From the NCBI GenBank assembly GCA_039683095.1, contig JBDKSB010000003.1, forward strand, positions 1-64,000: a stretch of DNA of 64,000 nucleotides, given 5' to 3'. This document shows positions 21,916-30,693 of the stretch, piece by piece. This stretch comes from Acidobacteriota bacterium (GTDB taxonomy: Bacteria; Acidobacteriota; Aminicenantia; Aminicenantales; Saccharicenantaceae). The notes beneath the pieces were generated by a model. That model saw only the letters and a program-made list of their open reading frames with translations, ran no database searches and was not told where the DNA came from. The position numbers and the translations under genes are program-made. Every line of letters starts with the position of its first letter. The stretch's first letter is position 1.

Positions 21916-22344
21916 ATGGAGACGGAACGCTACCGGATCCTGCCCCACACCGCCGACGGCAAGTTCCAGGCCTACGGCCGGACCCTCGGGGAGGCCTTCG
22001 GGAACGCGGCCCTGGCTCTGGCTTCCCTGATGTGGGATTGGCGCCGGGTCGAGCCCAAGGTCCGGCGCCGGGTCCGCGTCGACGGCATGGACCGGGAACA
22101 GCTGCTGGTCAAGTTCCTCGGCGAGATCGTCTTTCTTTTCGAAGCCCGCCGGTTCCTTCTCGGCCGGGTGGACGAGGTCGAGATCAGGCCCGGCTCCGGG
22201 CGCCTCAGCCTCGAAGCCGTCCTGGCCGGAGAGACCCTGTCCGCCCGCCACGAACTCCACGGCGGCGTCAAGGCGGTGACCTACCACGACCTCAGGATCG
22301 AGGAGCGCGGCGGCTTCACGGTCCAAGTTGTCGTGGACATGTGA
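21916..22344 (+). CDS. Archease
   Basis: Archease helps the RNA ligase RtcB turn over and widens its nucleotide use. The 142-residue protein begins with a HTADGKFQAYG segment that matches the family's HTADxxxxxxG start, followed by EAFGNAALALASLM, LLVKFLGEIVFLFEA and the closing AVTYHDLRIEE. The acidic metal-binding positions expected from the family appear to be present (Asp in HTAD and the C-terminal DL). It precedes rtcB by seven bases, the arrangement known from archaea and some bacteria. Confidence 0.93.
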   Translation: METERYRILPHTADGKFQAYGRTLGEAFGNAALALASLMWDWRRVEPKVRRRVRVDGMDREQLLVKFLGEIVFLFEARRFLLGRVDEVEIRPGSGRLSLEAVLAGETLSARHELHGGVKAVTYHDLRIEERGGFTVQVVVDM

Positions 22345-22351
22345 GGCGGCC

Positions 22352-23773
22352 ATGGACCTGCGCCGGATCGACGACAACACCTGGGAGATACCGGCCGAGG
22401 GCCCGATGCGGGTCCCGGCCGTCATCTACGCCTCGGCCCGCCTCCTCGACGACATCCGGCGGGACCAGACGCTGGTCCAGGCCCGCAACGTCGCCTGCCT
22501 GCCGGGCCTGGTCCGCCGGTCCTTCGTCATGCCCGACGCCCACCAGGGCTACGGCTTCCCGATCGGCGGCGTGGCCGCCTTCGACCCAGACGACGGGATC
22601 ATCTCGCCGGGCGGCGTCGGCTACGACATCAACTGCGGCGTCCGCCTGCTCCGGACGGACTACACGGAGGCGGATGTCGGCGCCAGGCGCCGGGAGCTCC
22701 TGGCCGAGATATTCAAGGAAGTGCCGGCCGGGGTGGGCAAGGGCGGCGTGACCAGGCTCAGCCGGGCCGTGCTGCGCGATATCCTGGCCCGCGGGGCGGA
22801 GTGGGCCGTCGGGAACGGCTACGGCTGGGCCGAGGACCTGGAGCGGACCGAGGAGCGCGGCCGGATGAAGGACGCGTCCGTCGAGGACGTTTCCGAGCGG
22901 GCCCTGGAGCGGGGCGTCCCCCAGCTCGGGACGCTCGGCGCGGGCAACCATTTCCTGGAGATCCAGAAGGTCGACCGGATCTACGACCAGGAAGCGGCCC
23001 GGGCCTTCGGGGTCGCGGCCCCGGGCCAGATCATGGTCATGGTCCACTGCGGCAGCCGCGGCCTGGGCCACCAGGTGGCGACCGATTTCATCGAGATCAT
23101 GGAGAACGCCTTCGGCGTGGCCGGGCTGCCCGACCGCGAGCTCGTCCACGCCCCGTTCACGTCGGCCGAGGGCCGGCGCTATTACCGGGCCATGTGCGCC
23201 GCGGTCAACTACGCCTTCGCCAACCGCCAGATGATCGCCCACTGGATCAGGGACGTCTTCGCCAGGGTCCTGGGCAGCGCCGAGGGCATGGACCAGGTCT
23301 ACGACGTCTGCCACAACGTGGCCAAGGTCGAGGAGCACGAAGTCGACGGCCGGCCGCGGCGGCTCGTCGTCCACCGCAAGGGCGCGACGCGCAGCTTCGG
23401 GCCGGGCCGGCCCGAGGTCCCGGCGGCCTACCGGGCCGTCGGCCAGCCGGTCATCATCCCCGGCAGCATGGGCACGGCCTCGTTCCTCCTGGCCGGGACG
23501 AAGCAGGCCGAGGGCCTGAGCTTCGCCTCGACCGCCCACGGCGCCGGCCGGGTCATGTCGCGGCACGAGGCCCTGCGGCGCTTCCGCGGCGAGACGATCC
23601 GCGACGATCTGGCCCGGCGGGGCATCGAGCTCCGGTCGACGAACTGGAAGGGCGTCGCCGAGGAGGCGGCCGAGGCCTACAAGGACGTCGAGGAGGTCGT
23701 GCGCGTCTCGAACGAGGTCGGCCTGGGCCGCCTCGTCGCCAGGCTCCTGCCGCTCGGGGTCATGAAGGGCTGA
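22352..23773 (+). CDS. rtcB: RNA-splicing ligase RtcB
   Basis: RtcB joins 2',3'-cyclic-phosphate and 5'-hydroxyl RNA ends with GTP and manganese. The 473 residues carry the metal and guanylate-site motifs GGVGYDINCGVRLL (Asp92, Cys95), LGAGNHFLEIQ, VHCGSRGLGHQV, DVCHNVAKVEEH and the nucleophile histidine in STAHGAGRVMSR. I chose the ATG giving MDLRRIDDNTWEIP. An in-frame ATG eight codons earlier lies inside the archease end. No RtcA or RtcR is nearby, so the pair looks like the archaeal-style healing or tRNA repair unit. Confidence 0.96.
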   Translation: MDLRRIDDNTWEIPAEGPMRVPAVIYASARLLDDIRRDQTLVQARNVACLPGLVRRSFVMPDAHQGYGFPIGGVAAFDPDDGIISPGGVGYDINCGVRLLRTDYTEADVGARRRELLAEIFKEVPAGVGKGGVTRLSRAVLRDILARGAEWAVGNGYGWAEDLERTEERGRMKDASVEDVSERALERGVPQLGTLGAGNHFLEIQKVDRIYDQEAARAFGVAAPGQIMVMVHCGSRGLGHQVATDFIEIMENAFGVAGLPDRELVHAPFTSAEGRRYYRAMCAAVNYAFANRQMIAHWIRDVFARVLGSAEGMDQVYDVCHNVAKVEEHEVDGRPRRLVVHRKGATRSFGPGRPEVPAAYRAVGQPVIIPGSMGTASFLLAGTKQAEGLSFASTAHGAGRVMSRHEALRRFRGETIRDDLARRGIELRSTNWKGVAEEAAEAYKDVEEVVRVSNEVGLGRLVARLLPLGVMKG

Positions 23774-23810
23774 GAGCGCGCCGCTGCGTCGCGCCCTCGG
23801 CTGATGTAGT

Positions 23811-23839
23811 TTGACAAAAACGGCGACGGACTCTAAGGT
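23811..23839 (+). promoter_or_regulatory. Possible promoter of the ThyX-like gene
   Basis: A perfect TTGACA (23811-23816) is followed after 17 bases by TAAGGT. The expected start site is almost on top of the GAGGGA ribosome binding site, so either the -10 box is different or the message is nearly leaderless. Confidence 0.4.
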
Positions 23840-23848
23840 AGAGGGACC

Positions 23849-25354
23849 ATGAAAGTGGTCCTGGCCGGATACAACGTCGACAGCGTCGTCCTCGACGAGC
23901 TCAAGCGGAATTCGCCGACGCGCCAGGACGCGACCCCCGAGACCCTGTCGGCCTCCTACGCCCGGATCTCGCGCGATCCGCGCCCGGTCGACGAGCTGCG
24001 GGCCGCGGCCCGGGCCGAGGTCGACCGGAGCCGGCGGTCCAACCAGGCCATCATCTTCAGGATGGGCCACCATTCGGTGGCCGAGCACGCCGTTTTCAAC
24101 TTCGACGTCATCGGCGTCAGCCGGCTGGCCATCGAGGAGATCGAGCGCTTCCGGCTGATGTCCTTCACCGAAAAGTCCCAGCGCTACATCACGCTCGGCG
24201 AGGACTTCGTCGTCCCCGAGGAGGTCCGCCGGGCCGGACTCGAGGGCATTTTCACCGGCGCGGTCCGGGCCCAGAACGCCCTTTACCACAAGCTTTACGC
24301 CCGCCTCAAGCCCTTCGTCTTCGCCAAGCACGCCGGCGCCGCGGCCGACCCGCGCAACCACGCCGTCCTCGACGGCTGGGCCAAGGAGGACGCCCGTTAT
24401 GTCGTCAGCCTGGCCACGGAAGGCCAGCTGGGGCTGACGGCCAACGCCCGCAGCCTCGAGCTCGTCATTCGCCGCTTCGCCGCCAAGGGGCTGGCCGAGC
24501 TCCGGGAACTCAACGCCCGGCTCTATGATCTGGCCAAGGAGGCCGCGCCCTCGATCATCCTGTTCACCGACCCAAGCCCGTTCGACGCCGAAACCTATGA
24601 CGACTTGGCCGGGGCCGCGGCCGCCTGGGGGGAGCCCGGCCGGCGGCCGGCCCGTCGGCGCCGGGCCTCGGCGCCGGGCGTCGTCCTGGCCGGCGCTCCG
24701 GCCGACGGCGACCAGCGGGTCATCGCCGCCCTGCTCCATTCGGTCACCCGCTGGCCCTACCGGGAATGCCTGGACCGGGCCGGCCGGGCCAGGCCGGCGG
24801 CCCGCCGGGACATCGTCCGCCGGGCCCTGGCCCGGATGGAGTTCTACGATTTCCCGCCCCGGGAATTCGAGCACGCCGATCTCGTCTACGATCTCGTCCT
24901 GTCGGCCTCCTGCTTCGCCCAGCTCAAACGGCATCGCATGGCCACGCTGACCTGGCAGCGCTACGATCCCGGCCTGGGCGTCACCGTCCCGCCGTCGGTC
25001 CGCGAGGCCGGGGGCGAAAAGGATTTCCTGGAGGTCATCGACCGGACGAACGAGACCCACGCCCGGCTGGAGAAGGAGATCGGGCCGGCCGCCGATTACG
25101 TCCTGACCAACGCCCACCGGCGCCGGGCCCTGCTCAAGCTCAACGTCCGGGAGCTCTACCACGTCTCGCGCCTGCGCCAGGATGAGTCGGCCCAGTGGGA
25201 GATCCGCGGCCTCGCGGCCGCGATGTCCCGCCAGGCCGCCCGGGTCATGCCGCTGGCCTGTCTCCTGATCGGCGGCAAGGACGCCTATCCGGGGATCTAC
25301 GCCAAGGTCTTCGGCCGTCCGCCGAAGATGGTCCCGCCCCGGATCCTGAAGTAG
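23849..25354 (+). CDS. Double-length ThyX-like protein (flavin-dependent thymidylate synthase family)
   Basis: ThyX makes dTMP using FAD and folate. This 501-residue protein is about twice the usual length and contains two ThyX-like halves. The N-terminal half has the FRMGHHSVAEHAVFNF segment and the variant signature RFRLMSFTEKSQRY (100-113), compared with the usual RHRxxSxNExSxRY. The C-terminal half has RHRMATLTWQRY (361-372), two residues shorter, and ends with NVRELYHVSRL and AQWEIRGLA, the conserved substrate-side motif. Each half has lost some signature residues, so the active site may combine both. No thyA is in the window. Confidence 0.82.
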   Translation: MKVVLAGYNVDSVVLDELKRNSPTRQDATPETLSASYARISRDPRPVDELRAAARAEVDRSRRSNQAIIFRMGHHSVAEHAVFNFDVIGVSRLAIEEIERFRLMSFTEKSQRYITLGEDFVVPEEVRRAGLEGIFTGAVRAQNALYHKLYARLKPFVFAKHAGAAADPRNHAVLDGWAKEDARYVVSLATEGQLGLTANARSLELVIRRFAAKGLAELRELNARLYDLAKEAAPSIILFTDPSPFDAETYDDLAGAAAAWGEPGRRPARRRRASAPGVVLAGAPADGDQRVIAALLHSVTRWPYRECLDRAGRARPAARRDIVRRALARMEFYDFPPREFEHADLVYDLVLSASCFAQLKRHRMATLTWQRYDPGLGVTVPPSVREAGGEKDFLEVIDRTNETHARLEKEIGPAADYVLTNAHRRRALLKLNVRELYHVSRLRQDESAQWEIRGLAAAMSRQAARVMPLACLLIGGKDAYPGIYAKVFGRPPKMVPPRILK

Positions 25355-25413
25355 GCGTCCCGGCCGTCGGCGCGGAGGGGAGGGATGGAGCGGCCGTGCC
25401 GGACCGGGGCGCG

Positions 25414-26061
25414 TCAGGCCCCGGGCCCGAGGATGAACACGCGGCGGCCCCGGACCTCGAGCCGGCCCTCGAAATAGAGCTTGACGGACTCGGGATAGAT
25501 CTTGTGCTCCTCGACGAGGATGCGGGCCGCCAGCGTCTCCTCCGTGTCGTCCTGGAGCACCGGGACGCAGGCCTGGAGGATGATCGGGCCCATGTCGACC
25601 TCGGCGGCCACGAAGTGGACCGTGCAGCCCGAGAAGCGGACGCCCCAATCGATAGCCCTCTGCTGGACATGGAGGCCGGGAAAGGCGGGGAGGAGGGCCG
25701 GGTGGATGTTGAAGATGCGGTTCCTGAAGGCGTCGCACAGGGCCGGCGTCAGGACCCGCATGTAGCCGGCCAGGCAGACGAGGTCGATCCGCCGCTTCTC
25801 GACCTCGGCGATGATCGCCCGGTCGTAGTCTTCGCGGGAAGCGAAGAGCTTGGGATCGAGGAAGAGGGTCTCGAGCCCCCATTCCCGGGCCTTGAGCAGG
25901 CCCGGGGCGTCGGCCTTGTTGCTAAGGACCAGGGCGATCTCGGCGTTGACGGCGCCGCGGGCCGCGGCCTCGCGGATGGCCATGAAGTTCGAGCCCCGGC
26001 CGGACAGCAGGACGGCGACGCGGCCCTTCTTGCGCGGGCTGCGGAAGACGGCTTCGTCCAT
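25414..26061 (-). CDS. purN: Phosphoribosylglycinamide formyltransferase
   Basis: PurN transfers formyl from 10-formyl-THF to glycinamide ribonucleotide, the third purine step. The 215 residues contain LLSGRGSNFMAI (phosphate loop), the catalytic Asn-His in NIHPALLPAFPG, and the catalytic Asp in FVAAEVDMGPIILQ. I chose the ATG eight bases after the purL stop. The frame stays open further up, but only inside purL. It is the last gene of the purB-purS-purQ-purL-purN operon. Confidence 0.95.
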   Translation of the reverse strand: MDEAVFRSPRKKGRVAVLLSGRGSNFMAIREAAARGAVNAEIALVLSNKADAPGLLKAREWGLETLFLDPKLFASREDYDRAIIAEVEKRRIDLVCLAGYMRVLTPALCDAFRNRIFNIHPALLPAFPGLHVQQRAIDWGVRFSGCTVHFVAAEVDMGPIILQACVPVLQDDTEETLAARILVEEHKIYPESVKLYFEGRLEVRGRRVFILGPGA

Positions 26062-26069
26062 GGCGCCCC

Positions 26070-28283
26070 CTAGGTCCGGACCTTGAAATAGGCCGGCAGG
26101 CTGTCCTTCCAGGCATGGAAGGCCGCGTCGACCGAAATATGCAGGATCTCCCGTCCCCGCCGGCTGACGATCAGGGCCGTCCCGCCGGCGCGGCCGATGG
26201 CCCGGGCCGGCACGCCGCGTCCCTCGGCCATCTCCAGGAACCGGGCCAGATCGGCCTTCCGGCAGGTGACCAGGACGCGGGACTGGGTCTCGCTGAAGAG
26301 GAGGACGTCGTCCCGCATCCCGCCGCCGTCGAGCTCGACGGCGCAGCCGATCCGGCCGTCGCCGTGGAACGCGCATTCGGCCAGGGCCACGGCCAGCCCG
26401 CCCTCCGCGAGGTCGTGGGCCGAACGGACGAGCCCGGCCTCGATGGCCTCGAGCAGGAACTCCTGGTGGCGCTTTTCCCGTTCGAGGTCGATCGCCGGCG
26501 GCGCGCCGGCCTCGAGGCCGTGGACGGCCCGGAGGTATTCCGAGCCGCCGAGCTCGCCGAGCGTCTCGCCGACCAGCACCACGGCGTCGCCGGCGGCCCG
26601 GAAGCCCGGCCGGACGGCCCGGCCGACGTCGTCGATGAGGCCGACGACGCCCAGGACCGGGGTCGGATGGATGGACAGCCCCTCGGTGTCGTTATAGAAG
26701 CTGACGTTGCCGCCGGTGACCGGGATGGCGAAGGTCCGGCAGGCCTCGGCGATGCCGTTGACGGCCTGCTCGAACTGGCCCATGACCTCGGGCTTCTCGG
26801 GATTGCCGAAGTTCAGGCAGTTGGTGACGCCGATCGGCCGGGCGCCGACGCAGGCCAGGTTGCGGCAAGCCTCGGCCACGGCGATCCGGGCCCCGGTCCG
26901 GGGGTCGAGCCGGGTGTAGAGCCCGTTGCCGTCCAGGGTCATGGCCAGAGCCTTCTTCGAGCCCTTGATGCGGAGCACGGCCGCGTCGGCCCCGGGCAGG
27001 AAGACCGTGTTGACCTGGACCATGTGATCGTACTGGCGGAAGATCCACTCCTTGTCGGCGACGGTGGGCGAGGCCAGGACCGTGAGCAGGGCCTGATTGA
27101 GGTCGCCGGGCGCGGCCAGCGTCTCGAGCGGCGGAAGGGGCGGGGGAGGGGCGGGCGCGGCGATGGGCCGGTTGTAGGCCGGGCAGAGGTTGACCACGGC
27201 GTCGACCGGGATGTCGACGACGACCTCGCCCTTGAACGAGATGCGGGCCCGGCCGCCCTCGACGACCTCGCCGACGACCGGCGCGTCGAGGTCCCACTTG
27301 GCGAAGGCCGCCTGGACGGCGGCGACCTTCCCGGGCTCGGCCACGATGAGCATGCGCTCCTGCGACTCCGAGAGCAGGATCTCGTAGGGGGTCATGCCGC
27401 TTTCGCGCTGGGGCACCTTGTCGAGGTCGAGGACGACGCCCATGCCGCCCTTGGCCGCCATCTCGGTCGTCGAGCAGGTCAGGCCGGCCGCGCCCATGTC
27501 CTGGATGCCGACGATGAGGTCGCGGTCCATGACCTCGAGGCAGGCCTCGACCAGGAGCTTTTCCTTGAACGGGTCGCCGACCTGGACGTTGGGGCGCTTC
27601 TGCTCCGTGTCCTTGCCGAACTCGGCCGAGGCCATGGTCGCGCCGTGGATGCCGTCGCGGCCGGTCTTGGCCCCGACGTAGAGGACCTTGTTGCCGGCCC
27701 CCTCGGCCTTGGCGTAGAAGATCTTGTCCTTGTCGGCCAGGCCGAGGCAGAAGACGTTGACCAGCGGGTTGAGGGCGTAGCAGGGATCGAAATAGACCTC
27801 GCCGCCGACGGTCGGGACGCCGATCGAGTTGCCGTAGCCGGCGATGCCGGAAACGACGCCCTCCATGATCGAGCGGTTCTTCGGGTCGTCGGGCGGGCCG
27901 AAGCGCAGCGAGTCCAGGACGGCGATCGGCCGGGCGCCCATGGTGAAGATGTCCCGGAGGATGCCGCCGACGCCCGTGGCCGCGCCCTGGTAGGGCTCGA
28001 TGTACGACGGGTGGTTGTGGGACTCGATCTTGAAGACGACGACCTGGCCGTCGCCGATGTCCAGGACGCCGGCGTTCTCGCCGGGCCCCTGGACGACGTG
28101 CTTGCCATCGGTCGGGAACTTCTTGAGATGGACGCGCGAGCTCTTGTAGCCGCAGTGCTCGGACCACATGACCGAGAAGATGCCGAGCTCGGTCAGGTTC
28201 GGCTCCTTGCCGATCAGCTCGACGATGAGCTTGTACTCGTCTTCGGTCAGGTTATGCCGGTCGAGGACGGATTTATCGATCAT
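26070..28283 (-). CDS. purL: Phosphoribosylformylglycinamidine synthase subunit PurL
   Basis: PurL is the catalytic subunit making FGAM from FGAR, ATP and ammonia. The 737 residues are the short form that needs separate PurS and PurQ, both present just upstream. The text shows [54 protein letters not shown] and the second-half [13 protein letters not shown]. It overlaps the purQ end by 11 bases. Confidence 0.97.
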
Positions 28284-29016
28284 GGCGGACCTTCTTGCGG
28301 GGGGCGGGGCGCCGGGCCGGCCGGCCCCGCTCGATGCTGAGGATGAGGGACTCGAAGATCGTCCGGCCGTCCCGGCTGCCGAGCAGGGACTCCGCGGCCC
28401 GCTCCGGGTGGGGCATCAGGCCGAGGACGTTGCCCTCCCTGTTCCGGATGCCGGCGATGTTGCCGAGGGAGCCGTTGATGTTGGCCTCGGCGGTGACGTT
28501 GCCGCCGGGATCGCAGTAGCGGAAAACGACCTGGCCGTTCCGCTCGATCTCGGCCAGCGTCCGGGCCGGGGCGTAGTAGTTGCCGTCGAAGTGGGCGATG
28601 GGGATGCGCAGGACCTGGCCCTTTCGTCCGGCCCGGGTGAAGTCCGTCCGGGCGTCCTCGATCCGGACGTGGACGTGCTGGCAGAGGAACTTGAGGTTCT
28701 TGTTCCGGAGCATGGCCCCGGGCAGGAGGCCGAGCTCGAGCAGGATCTGGAAGCCGTTGCAGATGCCCAGGACGCGGCCGCCGCCGCGGGCGAAGGCCTT
28801 GACCTCCTGCATGAGCGGGGAGAAGCGGGCGATGGCCCCCGAGCGGAGGTAGTCGCCGTAGGAGAACCCGCCCGGCAGGACGACGCAGTCGACGCCCTGG
28901 AGGTCGTGGTCCTTGTGCCAGAGCATGACCGTCGGGCGCTTCATCACGTCCTTCAGGGCGTGGAGCGCGTCGAAGTCGCAGTTGGAGCCGGGGAATTGGA
29001 CGACGCCGAACTTCAT
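28273..29016 (-). CDS. purQ: Phosphoribosylformylglycinamidine synthase subunit PurQ
   Basis: PurQ is the glutaminase that feeds ammonia to PurL. The 247 residues have the class I amidotransferase triad: Cys in [11 protein letters not shown] and His-Glu in [10 protein letters not shown], with [10 protein letters not shown] at the start and [15 protein letters not shown]. The C-terminus is extended by about 15 residues rich in Arg, Pro and Lys ([16 protein letters not shown]), and the DNA for this tail overlaps the purL start. Confidence 0.96.
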
Positions 29017-29026
29017 GGCAGCGACC

Positions 29027-29275
29027 TCAGCGGCCCTTGATGATTTCCCAATCGAACTTCTCGATGATGGGATTGGCCAGGACCCGGCGGGAGATCTCGG
29101 GGACCAGGTCCTCGGCCTCCTTCCGGGTGACGCCTTCGAGGTCGAGCTCGAAGACCTTGCCCTGGCGGACGTCCGTGACCGCGGCGTAGCCCATCGTGTG
29201 GAGAGCGTTCTTGACGGTCTGGCCCTGGGGGTCGAGGACGCTGTCCTTGAACGAAACGAGGATCCGTACTTTCAT
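29027..29275 (-). CDS. purS: Phosphoribosylformylglycinamidine synthase subunit PurS
   Basis: PurS is the small structural subunit that bridges PurL and PurQ. The 82 residues match the family ([19 protein letters not shown], then the [17 protein letters not shown] segment). Its ATG overlaps the purB stop (ATGA), and purQ begins 10 bases after its stop. Confidence 0.94.
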
Positions 29276-30564
29276 CGGAGAACCCTTTCGAAGATGTAGT
29301 CGATCTTGGCGAGATACGGGTCGAGCGCGAAGCAGGCGGCCGTCTCCTTCGGGCCGAGGACCTTGGCGACGTCGGGGTCGGCCGCGACGAGGGCCCGGAA
29401 GTCGAGGTTCTCGTTCCAGGCCTTGAGGCTGTTGCGCTGGACGATCTGGTAGGCCGCCTCGCGGCTCAGGCCCTTCCGGGTCAGGGCCAGGAGAACGCTC
29501 TGGGAGAAGATGAGGCCCCGCGTGGCGTCGATGTTGGCCCGCATGCGCTCGGGGTGGACGACCCAGTGGGCGACGATGTCGGCGGCGTCGGCCAGCAGGA
29601 AATCGGCGGCGATGAACGAATCCGGGAAGACGATCCGCTCGGCCGAGGAGTGGGAGATGTCGCGCTCATGCCAGAGGACCATGTTCTCGAGGCCCACCCC
29701 GGCGTTGGCCCGGACGACCCGGGCCAGGCCCGAGATCCGCTCGGAGCGGACGGGGTTCTTCTTGTGGGGCATGGACGACGAGCCCTTCTGGCCCTTGGTG
29801 AACGGCTCCTCGAGCTCGAGGACCTCGGTCCGCTGGAGGTGGCGGACCTCGACCGCGATCTTCTCGACGGTCGTGGCCAGGAGGGCCAAGGCCGAGAGGA
29901 CCTCGGCGTGGCGGTCGCGCTGGAGGACCTGGGTCGAGACCCTGGCCGGCTCGAGGCCGAGCTTCCTGAGGGCGATGACCTCGACGCGGGGATCGAGGTG
30001 GATGAACGTGCCCACCGAGCCGGAGATGCGGCCGACGGAGATCGTCTTCAGGGCGTGCTCGAGGCGGTCGATGTGGCGGCCGACCTCCTCGTACCAGACG
30101 AGGATCTTGAAGCCGAAGGTGATCGGCTCGGCGTGGACGCCGTGGGTGCGTCCGATGCAGACGGTCTTGCGGTGCTTGACGGCCTGGCGCTTGAGCAGGC
30201 GGTGGAAGGCCCGCAGGTCGGCCAGCAGCTTTTCGAGCGATTCCTTGATGAGGAGCGACAGGGCCGTGTCGACGACGTCGTAGGAGGTCAGCCCGAGGTG
30301 GATGTGGCGCGAGGCGGGGCCGACCTTCTCGGCGACAGAGGTCAGGAAGGCGATGATGTCGTGCTTGACGACCTTCTCGATCTCGTCGATGCGCTTGACG
30401 GAGAAGCCGGCCTTGCCCCGGATGACGCGCAGGTCGGCCTGGGGGATCTTCCCCAGGCGGGCCCAGGCCTCGCAGACGGCCAGTTCGACGTCGAGCCAGC
30501 GGCGGTACCTGTTCTCCTCGGTCCAGATCGCCCCCATGACCGGGCGGGTATAGCGTTCGATCAT
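29272..30564 (-). CDS. purB: Adenylosuccinate lyase
   Basis: PurB splits SAICAR and adenylosuccinate, releasing fumarate, so it serves both IMP and AMP synthesis. The 430 residues show MIERYTRPVMGAIWTEENRY, the HLGLTSYDVVDTA segment, IGRTHGVHAEPITFG with the catalytic His, and the family signature GSSSMPHKKNPVRSE. I chose the ATG after AGAAAGG. Another in-frame start upstream lies across the promoter. It heads the pur operon and overlaps purS by four bases. Confidence 0.97.
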   Translation of the reverse strand: MIERYTRPVMGAIWTEENRYRRWLDVELAVCEAWARLGKIPQADLRVIRGKAGFSVKRIDEIEKVVKHDIIAFLTSVAEKVGPASRHIHLGLTSYDVVDTALSLLIKESLEKLLADLRAFHRLLKRQAVKHRKTVCIGRTHGVHAEPITFGFKILVWYEEVGRHIDRLEHALKTISVGRISGSVGTFIHLDPRVEVIALRKLGLEPARVSTQVLQRDRHAEVLSALALLATTVEKIAVEVRHLQRTEVLELEEPFTKGQKGSSSMPHKKNPVRSERISGLARVVRANAGVGLENMVLWHERDISHSSAERIVFPDSFIAADFLLADAADIVAHWVVHPERMRANIDATRGLIFSQSVLLALTRKGLSREAAYQIVQRNSLKAWNENLDFRALVAADPDVAKVLGPKETAACFALDPYLAKIDYIFERVLR

Positions 30565-30593
30565 CTCGATACAGCCTTTCTTGGAATGGTCGG

Positions 30594-30602
30594 ATGATAG
30601 CA
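30594..30602 (-). promoter_or_regulatory. Extended -10 promoter of the pur operon
   Basis: On the minus strand TGCTATCAT is an extended -10 element 29 bases before the purB ATG. The -35 region is poor, as is common for this promoter type. I see no obvious operator or guanine-riboswitch in the short leader. Confidence 0.45.
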
Positions 30603-30693
30603 CAAAAACGGGGGACACGGAACCGGTTCCCCGCAAAAACCGGGCGCGGGCCGCGTTCCGGCCCTATCCGCGGCGCCGGCCGAAAAGAAGCCC

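Follow-up and report, generated by a model that had tools for sequence, protein, structure and literature searches.

The window, a 64,000-nucleotide stretch of DNA, is part of contig C3 of a 3.29-Mb assembly of an Acidobacteriota genome (95.27% complete). It contains an intact open reading frame (ORF) whose product matches the Pfam family Thy1 (PF02511) over two stretches (E 1e-57; 195.4 bits against a cut-off of 24.8), at 23933-24553 within the N-terminal half and at 24854-25252 within the C-terminal half (Table 1). The score against the NCBIfam thyX model TIGR02170 is 132.8 bits, exceeding the curated cut-off of 87.9, and all 20 phmmer matches to solved structures with E < 0.001 are chains of the ThyX family. 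A profile search of the contigs identified this gene as the sole ThyX locus of its own genome. The closest named relatives are Candidatus Aminicenantes assemblies, with identities of up to 81%, and on this ground the window's clade is assigned to Aminicenantes, within the Acidobacteriota.

The window protein and 54 relatives served to build an AlphaFold2 model with a mean pLDDT of 84.2 and a pTM of 0.83; its poorly modelled parts are residues 36-44, 46-51, and 61-75 and the linker. The best Foldseek matches of this model are ThyX proteins. In VIA-align comparisons (matches with Z of 5.0 or lower were unrelated proteins and were left out), residues 1-251 aligned with Mycobacterium tuberculosis ThyX (3gwc_A; Z 16.6, rmsd 4.1, 221 residues) and residues 274-482 with Thermotoga maritima ThyX (5chp; Z 16.8, rmsd 2.3, 192 residues), so each half has a predicted ThyX fold. 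On the basis of these matches and the model, the product is assigned as a tandem ThyX of the flavin-dependent thymidylate synthase family, with two predicted ThyX folds per chain. This bears out the initial annotation, which had described a tandem protein with each half resembling ThyX and had quoted two motifs that are present exactly, RFRLMSFTEKSQRY at residues 100-113 and RHRMATLTWQRY at residues 361-372.

Among 86 loci of relatives, read with 3-kb or 2-kb flanks and in some cases ended by the contig, purN is near thyX in 26 and rtcB in 23. Nucleotide-synthesis neighbours are consistent with the proposed function but no proof of it. An antisense ORF of 1188 aa (window positions 22316-25882, minus strand) covers rtcB and thyX; it shows no sign of being a gene and is put down to high GC content.

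Table 1 Features of the tandem thyX locus and the ThyA-like ORF of the same genome (window coordinates unless a contig is named)
Feature	Position	Strand	Description
archease, rtcB	21916..23773	+	Upstream, same strand as thyX; Pfam PF01951, PF01139
Tandem ThyX gene	23849..25354	+	501 aa, stop counted in coordinates, ATG start; Pfam Thy1 twice, TIGR02170 over cut-off
N-half, residues 1-257	23849..24619	+	Predicted ThyX fold; dUMP-side and second FAD-side residues kept, RFR for RHR
GHHSVAEH	24065..24088	+	His and Ser equivalent to T. maritima H53/T55 and M. tuberculosis Ser71; FAD/folate side, 'subunit B' role
SR	24119..24124	+	Arg equivalent to M. tuberculosis Arg87; dUMP contact, 'subunit C' role
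N-half signature RFRLMSFTEKSQRY	24146..24187	+	dUMP Ser/Arg/Tyr intact; His of RHR replaced by Phe
Linker between halves	24620..24673	+	Low model confidence, residues 265-274 with pLDDT < 50
C-half, residues 276-501	24674..25351	+	Second predicted ThyX fold
C-half signature RHRMATLTWQRY	24929..24964	+	RHR (FAD) intact; two residues short; without dUMP Ser
NVRELYHVSRLR with Arg443	25142..25177	+	Equivalent to M. tuberculosis Arg199 / T. maritima R174; dUMP contact, 'subunit A' role
purN, purL, purQ, purS (by eye), purB	25414..30636	-	Downstream, convergent; Pfam matches
Methanogen-type ThyA-like ORF	L003:1378-2826, contig C1	-	TIGR03283 109.2 bits, below cut-off of 174.55

Active-site residues in the two halves

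Canonical ThyX is an established enzyme, a homotetramer in which three subunits contribute to each active site. In M. tuberculosis ThyX, subunit A contributes Arg95-His96-Arg97 (FAD) and Arg199 (dUMP), subunit B contributes Ser71 and Arg190 (FAD), and subunit C contributes Arg87, Ser105, and Arg107 (dUMP) together with the lid residue Tyr108 (PMC6514825). For the T. maritima enzyme, an excerpt of PMC11940539 places His53 on 'monomer-3'. Its nearness to Ser71 suggests that His53 belongs to role B, and the folate-side His of the canonical site probably comes from this second subunit.

To follow these residues through the tandem form, we divided each of 63 tandem proteins of the phylum into its halves and aligned these with 25 single-domain ThyX proteins, which are those of the 30 single-domain loci (L034-L063) that were caught by the query search. 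The tandem proteins fall into four groups, of 25 (group 1, that of the window), 19 (group 2), 13 (group 3), and 6 (group 4) members. Left out of the 63 were a contig-edge fragment (L029) and six loci missed by the query search (L091, L104, L108, L113, L114, and L115); RHR is present in the C-half of all six, and SQRY in the N-half of five, with SQRF in L104. A larger alignment of the window's group has 87 rows, made up of the window, 80 loci of named genomes, and 6 contigs classed as viral. The two sets overlap: L008 and L151 appear to be one gene, because they occupy equal places in G178 and G228.

In all 63 tandem proteins of the phylum, the C-half keeps the equivalents of R95, H96, R97, and R199, and the N-half those of Ser/Thr71, Ser105, Arg107, and Tyr108; the Ser71 position of the C-half is occupied by Arg, Lys, Gln, or Glu. 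Within the window's group, the N-half equivalents of His53, Ser71, Glu86, Arg87, Ser105, Arg107, Tyr108, and Arg190 are found in 87 of 87 rows, as is the RHR of the C-half. The Arg199 equivalent of the C-half is present in 86 of these rows, and the remaining row is truncated. All 87 C-halves have Arg at the Ser71 position and Ala or Ser at the Arg87 position; they are without His at the His53 position, and the H and S of a GHHSVAEH-type motif occur in none of them. Independently of any alignment, the pattern [RK]HRx7-8SxRY was recovered in 25 of 25 single-domain ThyX proteins, 0 of 126 halves, and 0 of the 87 proteins, and a contiguous RHRx7-8S(x)RY in one domain is absent from both halves of the window protein and from all 63 tandems. 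Once the two halves are pooled, the signature residues are all present, in the 63 tandems and in the 87 rows alike. Since the signature is complete only on pooling, the tandem ThyX is filed here as a divided variant and not as a typical ThyX. Mean pairwise identity over 55 rows is 62% for the N-half and 50% for the C-half.

The initial annotation had listed two substitutions in the N-terminal motif. The replacement of His by Phe is real, the His96 position being Phe in 79 and His in 2 of the 87 N-halves of the group, whereas the Thr for Asn is not a real one, being found in ordinary single-domain ThyX proteins of the phylum as well (for example, L038, RHRLASYTQQSQRY). Its remark that the C-terminal motif is two residues short applies to the relatives too, with the gap in all 14 rows listed of the window's group, window included. 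The RFR of the window's N-half retains both Arg residues. Further, Arg209 of the N-half, invariant in 55 of 55 rows, aligns with the role-A residue R174 given a one-residue gap, and the role-A Arg (the R174/Arg199 equivalent) may thus survive as R209 in the N-halves of group 1. The loss of role A from these N-halves would then be due mainly to the exchange of His for Phe. At the Arg190 position the groups differ: group 1 has Arg in both halves, group 2 has no Arg among the residues listed for either half, and in 11 of 13 group 3 proteins it survives in the C-half but not in the N-half. The H69/H53 position is Asp in 12 of the 13 group 3 N-halves. These exceptions, together with the Arg residues that remain in the group 1 N-halves, count against a perfect sorting of the roles by half. 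Among the group 2 proteins listed (for example, L093, L095, and L099), there is a C-terminal extension with conserved cysteines (P-C ... P-x-C-x-E ... C-G), perhaps a metal site; cysteines of this type are not in the window protein.

The age of the duplication was addressed with a phylogenetic tree of 62 halves and singles (SH-aLRT support). The N-halves of groups 1, 3, and 4 form one clade (99) and their C-halves another (98), with mirrored order, while the group 2 halves join the N- and C-clades at supports of only 88 and 83. An independent origin of all four groups was rejected, since holding the two halves of group 1 as one clade fails (p-AU 4.5e-5); the same constraint on group 2 is not rejected (p-AU 0.517). 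The mirrored clades and the rejected constraint indicate that the duplication predates the split of group 1 from groups 3 and 4, and the mirrored clades of these three groups that the division of labour is old and has been kept. Group 2 may share this one duplication or may represent a second event.

Genomic distribution and other possible sources of thymidylate

The tandem architecture is also present in many other Acidobacteriota, in Omnitrophota and Elusimicrobia, and in other named genomes. ThyX matches were found in 146 of 199 genomes of the window's phylum and canonical ThyA (PF00303 with E < 1e-90) in 44; a weak PF00303 match is all that 6 have, and 3 have neither family; not one of the 199 has both ThyX and canonical ThyA. 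Weak PF00303 matches occur in 16 of these genomes. The three without Thy1 or PF00303 matches are G048, G090, and G185, and G048 is 79% complete. Two Thy1 matches are found in 103 genomes, 96 of which are without a PF00303 match; 69 complete loci and one partial locus from the 103 were read directly. G045, which is counted among the 103, probably has one single ThyX cut in two, as its matches are at the ends of two contigs. In the window's class, 16 of 21 genomes have two Thy1 matches, 5 have one single-domain ThyX (frames of 250-271 aa), and none has more. For the window's order, 6 of 11 genomes (window included) have two Thy1 matches and zero PF00303 matches.

Thirty of the 86 loci of the window's group led to 30 named genomes, every one with the tandem form. 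Two of these also have a canonical ThyA, two a weak PF00303 match, and four another Thy1 match, which is a full single ThyX in two of them, split in one, and a fragment in one; the tandem form alone, with no PF00303 or further Thy1 match, is present in 22. The split copy (G206:C80:31521-32076) is a second ThyX over two overlapping frames (125 + 158 aa) beside the tandem gene, perhaps the result of a frameshift. A second phylum was sampled with 117 genomes of the Omnitrophota, the phylum of G217. Here, 2 of 35 genomes with ThyX also have a canonical ThyA, and 13 genomes have both Thy1 matches in one frame; two of the 13 have a canonical ThyA and two a further single ThyX, leaving nine, one of which (G202) also has a 54-position fragment. 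Overall, the distribution across genomes supports a thymidylate synthase function for the tandem ThyX, with the 2 of 30 named genomes that also have a canonical ThyA and the four with another Thy1 match counting against it.

Tandem ThyX genes of the window's group are also carried by six IMG/VR contigs classed as viral (L196-L201, up to 470 kb). The flanking ORFs, four of L199 and three of L196, show few or weak phage families. The tandem form was not found in the annotated phage collection, where 170 records matched but no match spanned 80% of the query.

The genome check proposed in the initial annotation returned no canonical thyA and no second thyX but did reveal a divergent, methanogen-type ThyA-like gene on contig C1 (PF00303, 41.7 bits; Table 1). 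By eye, its product keeps a PC motif and several ThyA catalytic positions, and it could also make dTMP. It may be a real synthase, because in both phyla sampled there are genomes without ThyX in which a weak PF00303 match is the sole candidate (6 of 199 in the window's phylum). The idea that the tandem ThyX is the sole thymidylate source of its own genome was dropped given this ORF, and we make no such claim. The initial annotation had named a normal thymidylate synthase elsewhere, combined with a lack of flavin binding, as evidence against its reading; the first part of this combination is touched on weakly by the ThyA-like gene. A profile search of the same genome gave no DHFR_1 match and no TK match, which is a usual setting for ThyX users.

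A possible divided active site

The gene likely encodes a working flavin-dependent thymidylate synthase in which two fused ThyX domains divide the active site between them, as judged from the sequences and the model. The C-half would be able to play only role A, and the N-half only roles B and C. A complete site would need a C-half in role A and N-halves in roles B and C, because the N-halves alone have retained Ser71 and the role-C residues. Applied to a 222-like tetramer, this assignment would make the fourth position a C-half and so give two complete and two incomplete sites; the other two subunit assignments were rejected, as each calls on a half for a role that it no longer has. Two chains would form a tetramer-like dimer, or pseudo-tetramer, whose two complete sites would each combine a C-half with N-halves from the two chains, with the two other sites dead. 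From the residue pattern we infer this quaternary arrangement, the binding of a single FAD and a single dUMP by each chain, and the catalytic activity. The suggestion in the initial annotation that a fused form may build asymmetric sites is supported indirectly, by inference, because the surviving residues are distributed between the halves according to their subunit of origin in solved ThyX structures. It is unlikely that a more elaborate scheme holds in all its parts, in which the protein would be an obligate composite enzyme, group 2 would have split a second time with the same polarity, and the incomplete sites would be ligand-sensing pockets for half-of-the-sites regulation.

An artefact of assembly or a frameshift that fused two adjacent thyX genes has a negligible probability and nothing in its favour, since all 69 complete tandem loci of the phylum, window included (the 63 aligned and 6 checked later), encode the two domains in a single ORF, and in two other collections a single ORF likewise carries the match at each of 86 loci. 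Chance is excluded by the recurrence of the architecture and motifs in dozens of genomes. It could also be that the tandem protein is a thymidylate synthase in which one half is structural or regulatory and the other alone forms ordinary sites. Both halves have diverged, as is seen for many pseudo-enzyme fusions, yet neither half has a complete signature in the 63 proteins or the 87 rows: the C-half is without the dUMP Ser/Arg and the Ser71 equivalent, the N-half is without RHR, and both are conserved. We therefore consider this reading very unlikely.

Another alternative is that the tandem ThyX is not the thymidylate synthase of the cell and instead serves another uracil methylation, or another flavin role, with the ThyA-like protein making dTMP. 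PolB, which methylates UMP/dUMP, shares the fold, and the genome of the window also has the divergent ThyA-like gene. In the VIA-align search, the PolB structure 4p5b matched the tandem model with Z 13.8, lower than the ThyX structures. In Corynebacterium glutamicum, according to the title of PDB entry 3ge9, ThyX is present but not required for thymidylate, so a ThyX fold by itself is little proof of function. Against this, ThyX and canonical ThyA never occur together in the 199 genomes of the phylum, and the genomes noted above with two Thy1 matches and zero PF00303 matches (6 of 11 in the order), or with the tandem form and neither PF00303 nor further Thy1 matches (22 of 30 named genomes), have the tandem protein in place of a ThyA. 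We regard this alternative as distinctly unlikely and favour a thymidylate synthase with a divided site.

The sites of ThyX, a target for antibiotics, are difficult to take apart experimentally, since any given residue recurs in four identical copies of the chain. In a natural tandem whose halves each keep a part of the roles, the subunit roles can be mutated singly, and the divided-site model predicts a measurable site stoichiometry. The distribution also suggests that many little-studied bacteria rely for thymine on an enzyme form uncharacterised in the literature searched. In the open-licence literature searched, no account of an active site divided between ThyX domains was found, and a single paper, by Valas and Bourne, mentions a duplicated ThyX. 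An excerpt of that paper describes a ThyX domain duplication that had 'not been characterized', in Chloroflexi and 'a few other species' (PMC3224940, 2009). The Chloroflexi protein resembles the window protein in having two ThyX domains per chain, but is likened to it by description only, and the passage on it gives no division of the active site (PMC3224940). What is new is thus the residue bookkeeping and the divided site it suggests, the tandem form itself having been known since 2009.

Among other systems, the ThyA-like protein of contig C1 possibly shares dTMP synthesis with the tandem ThyX but belongs to an unrelated family (PF00303). The ThyX of Chlamydia trachomatis is reportedly of double length, as the initial annotation also had it for long chlamydial homologues, and is likened to the tandem form by description only. 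As far as excerpts of the sources go, Chlamydiaceae have thyX and C. pecorum is without thyA (PMC3932018), and isolated C. trachomatis ThyX was active in assays (PMC3498832). Canonical ThyX (TIGR02170, PF02511) shares with the tandem form the predicted fold of both halves, the RHR for FAD, the Ser/Arg/Tyr for dUMP, and the exclusion of ThyA. The tandem form differs in having two domains per chain, with the whole signature in neither half, and in its predicted two complete sites per tetramer-like assembly, compared with four in canonical ThyX.
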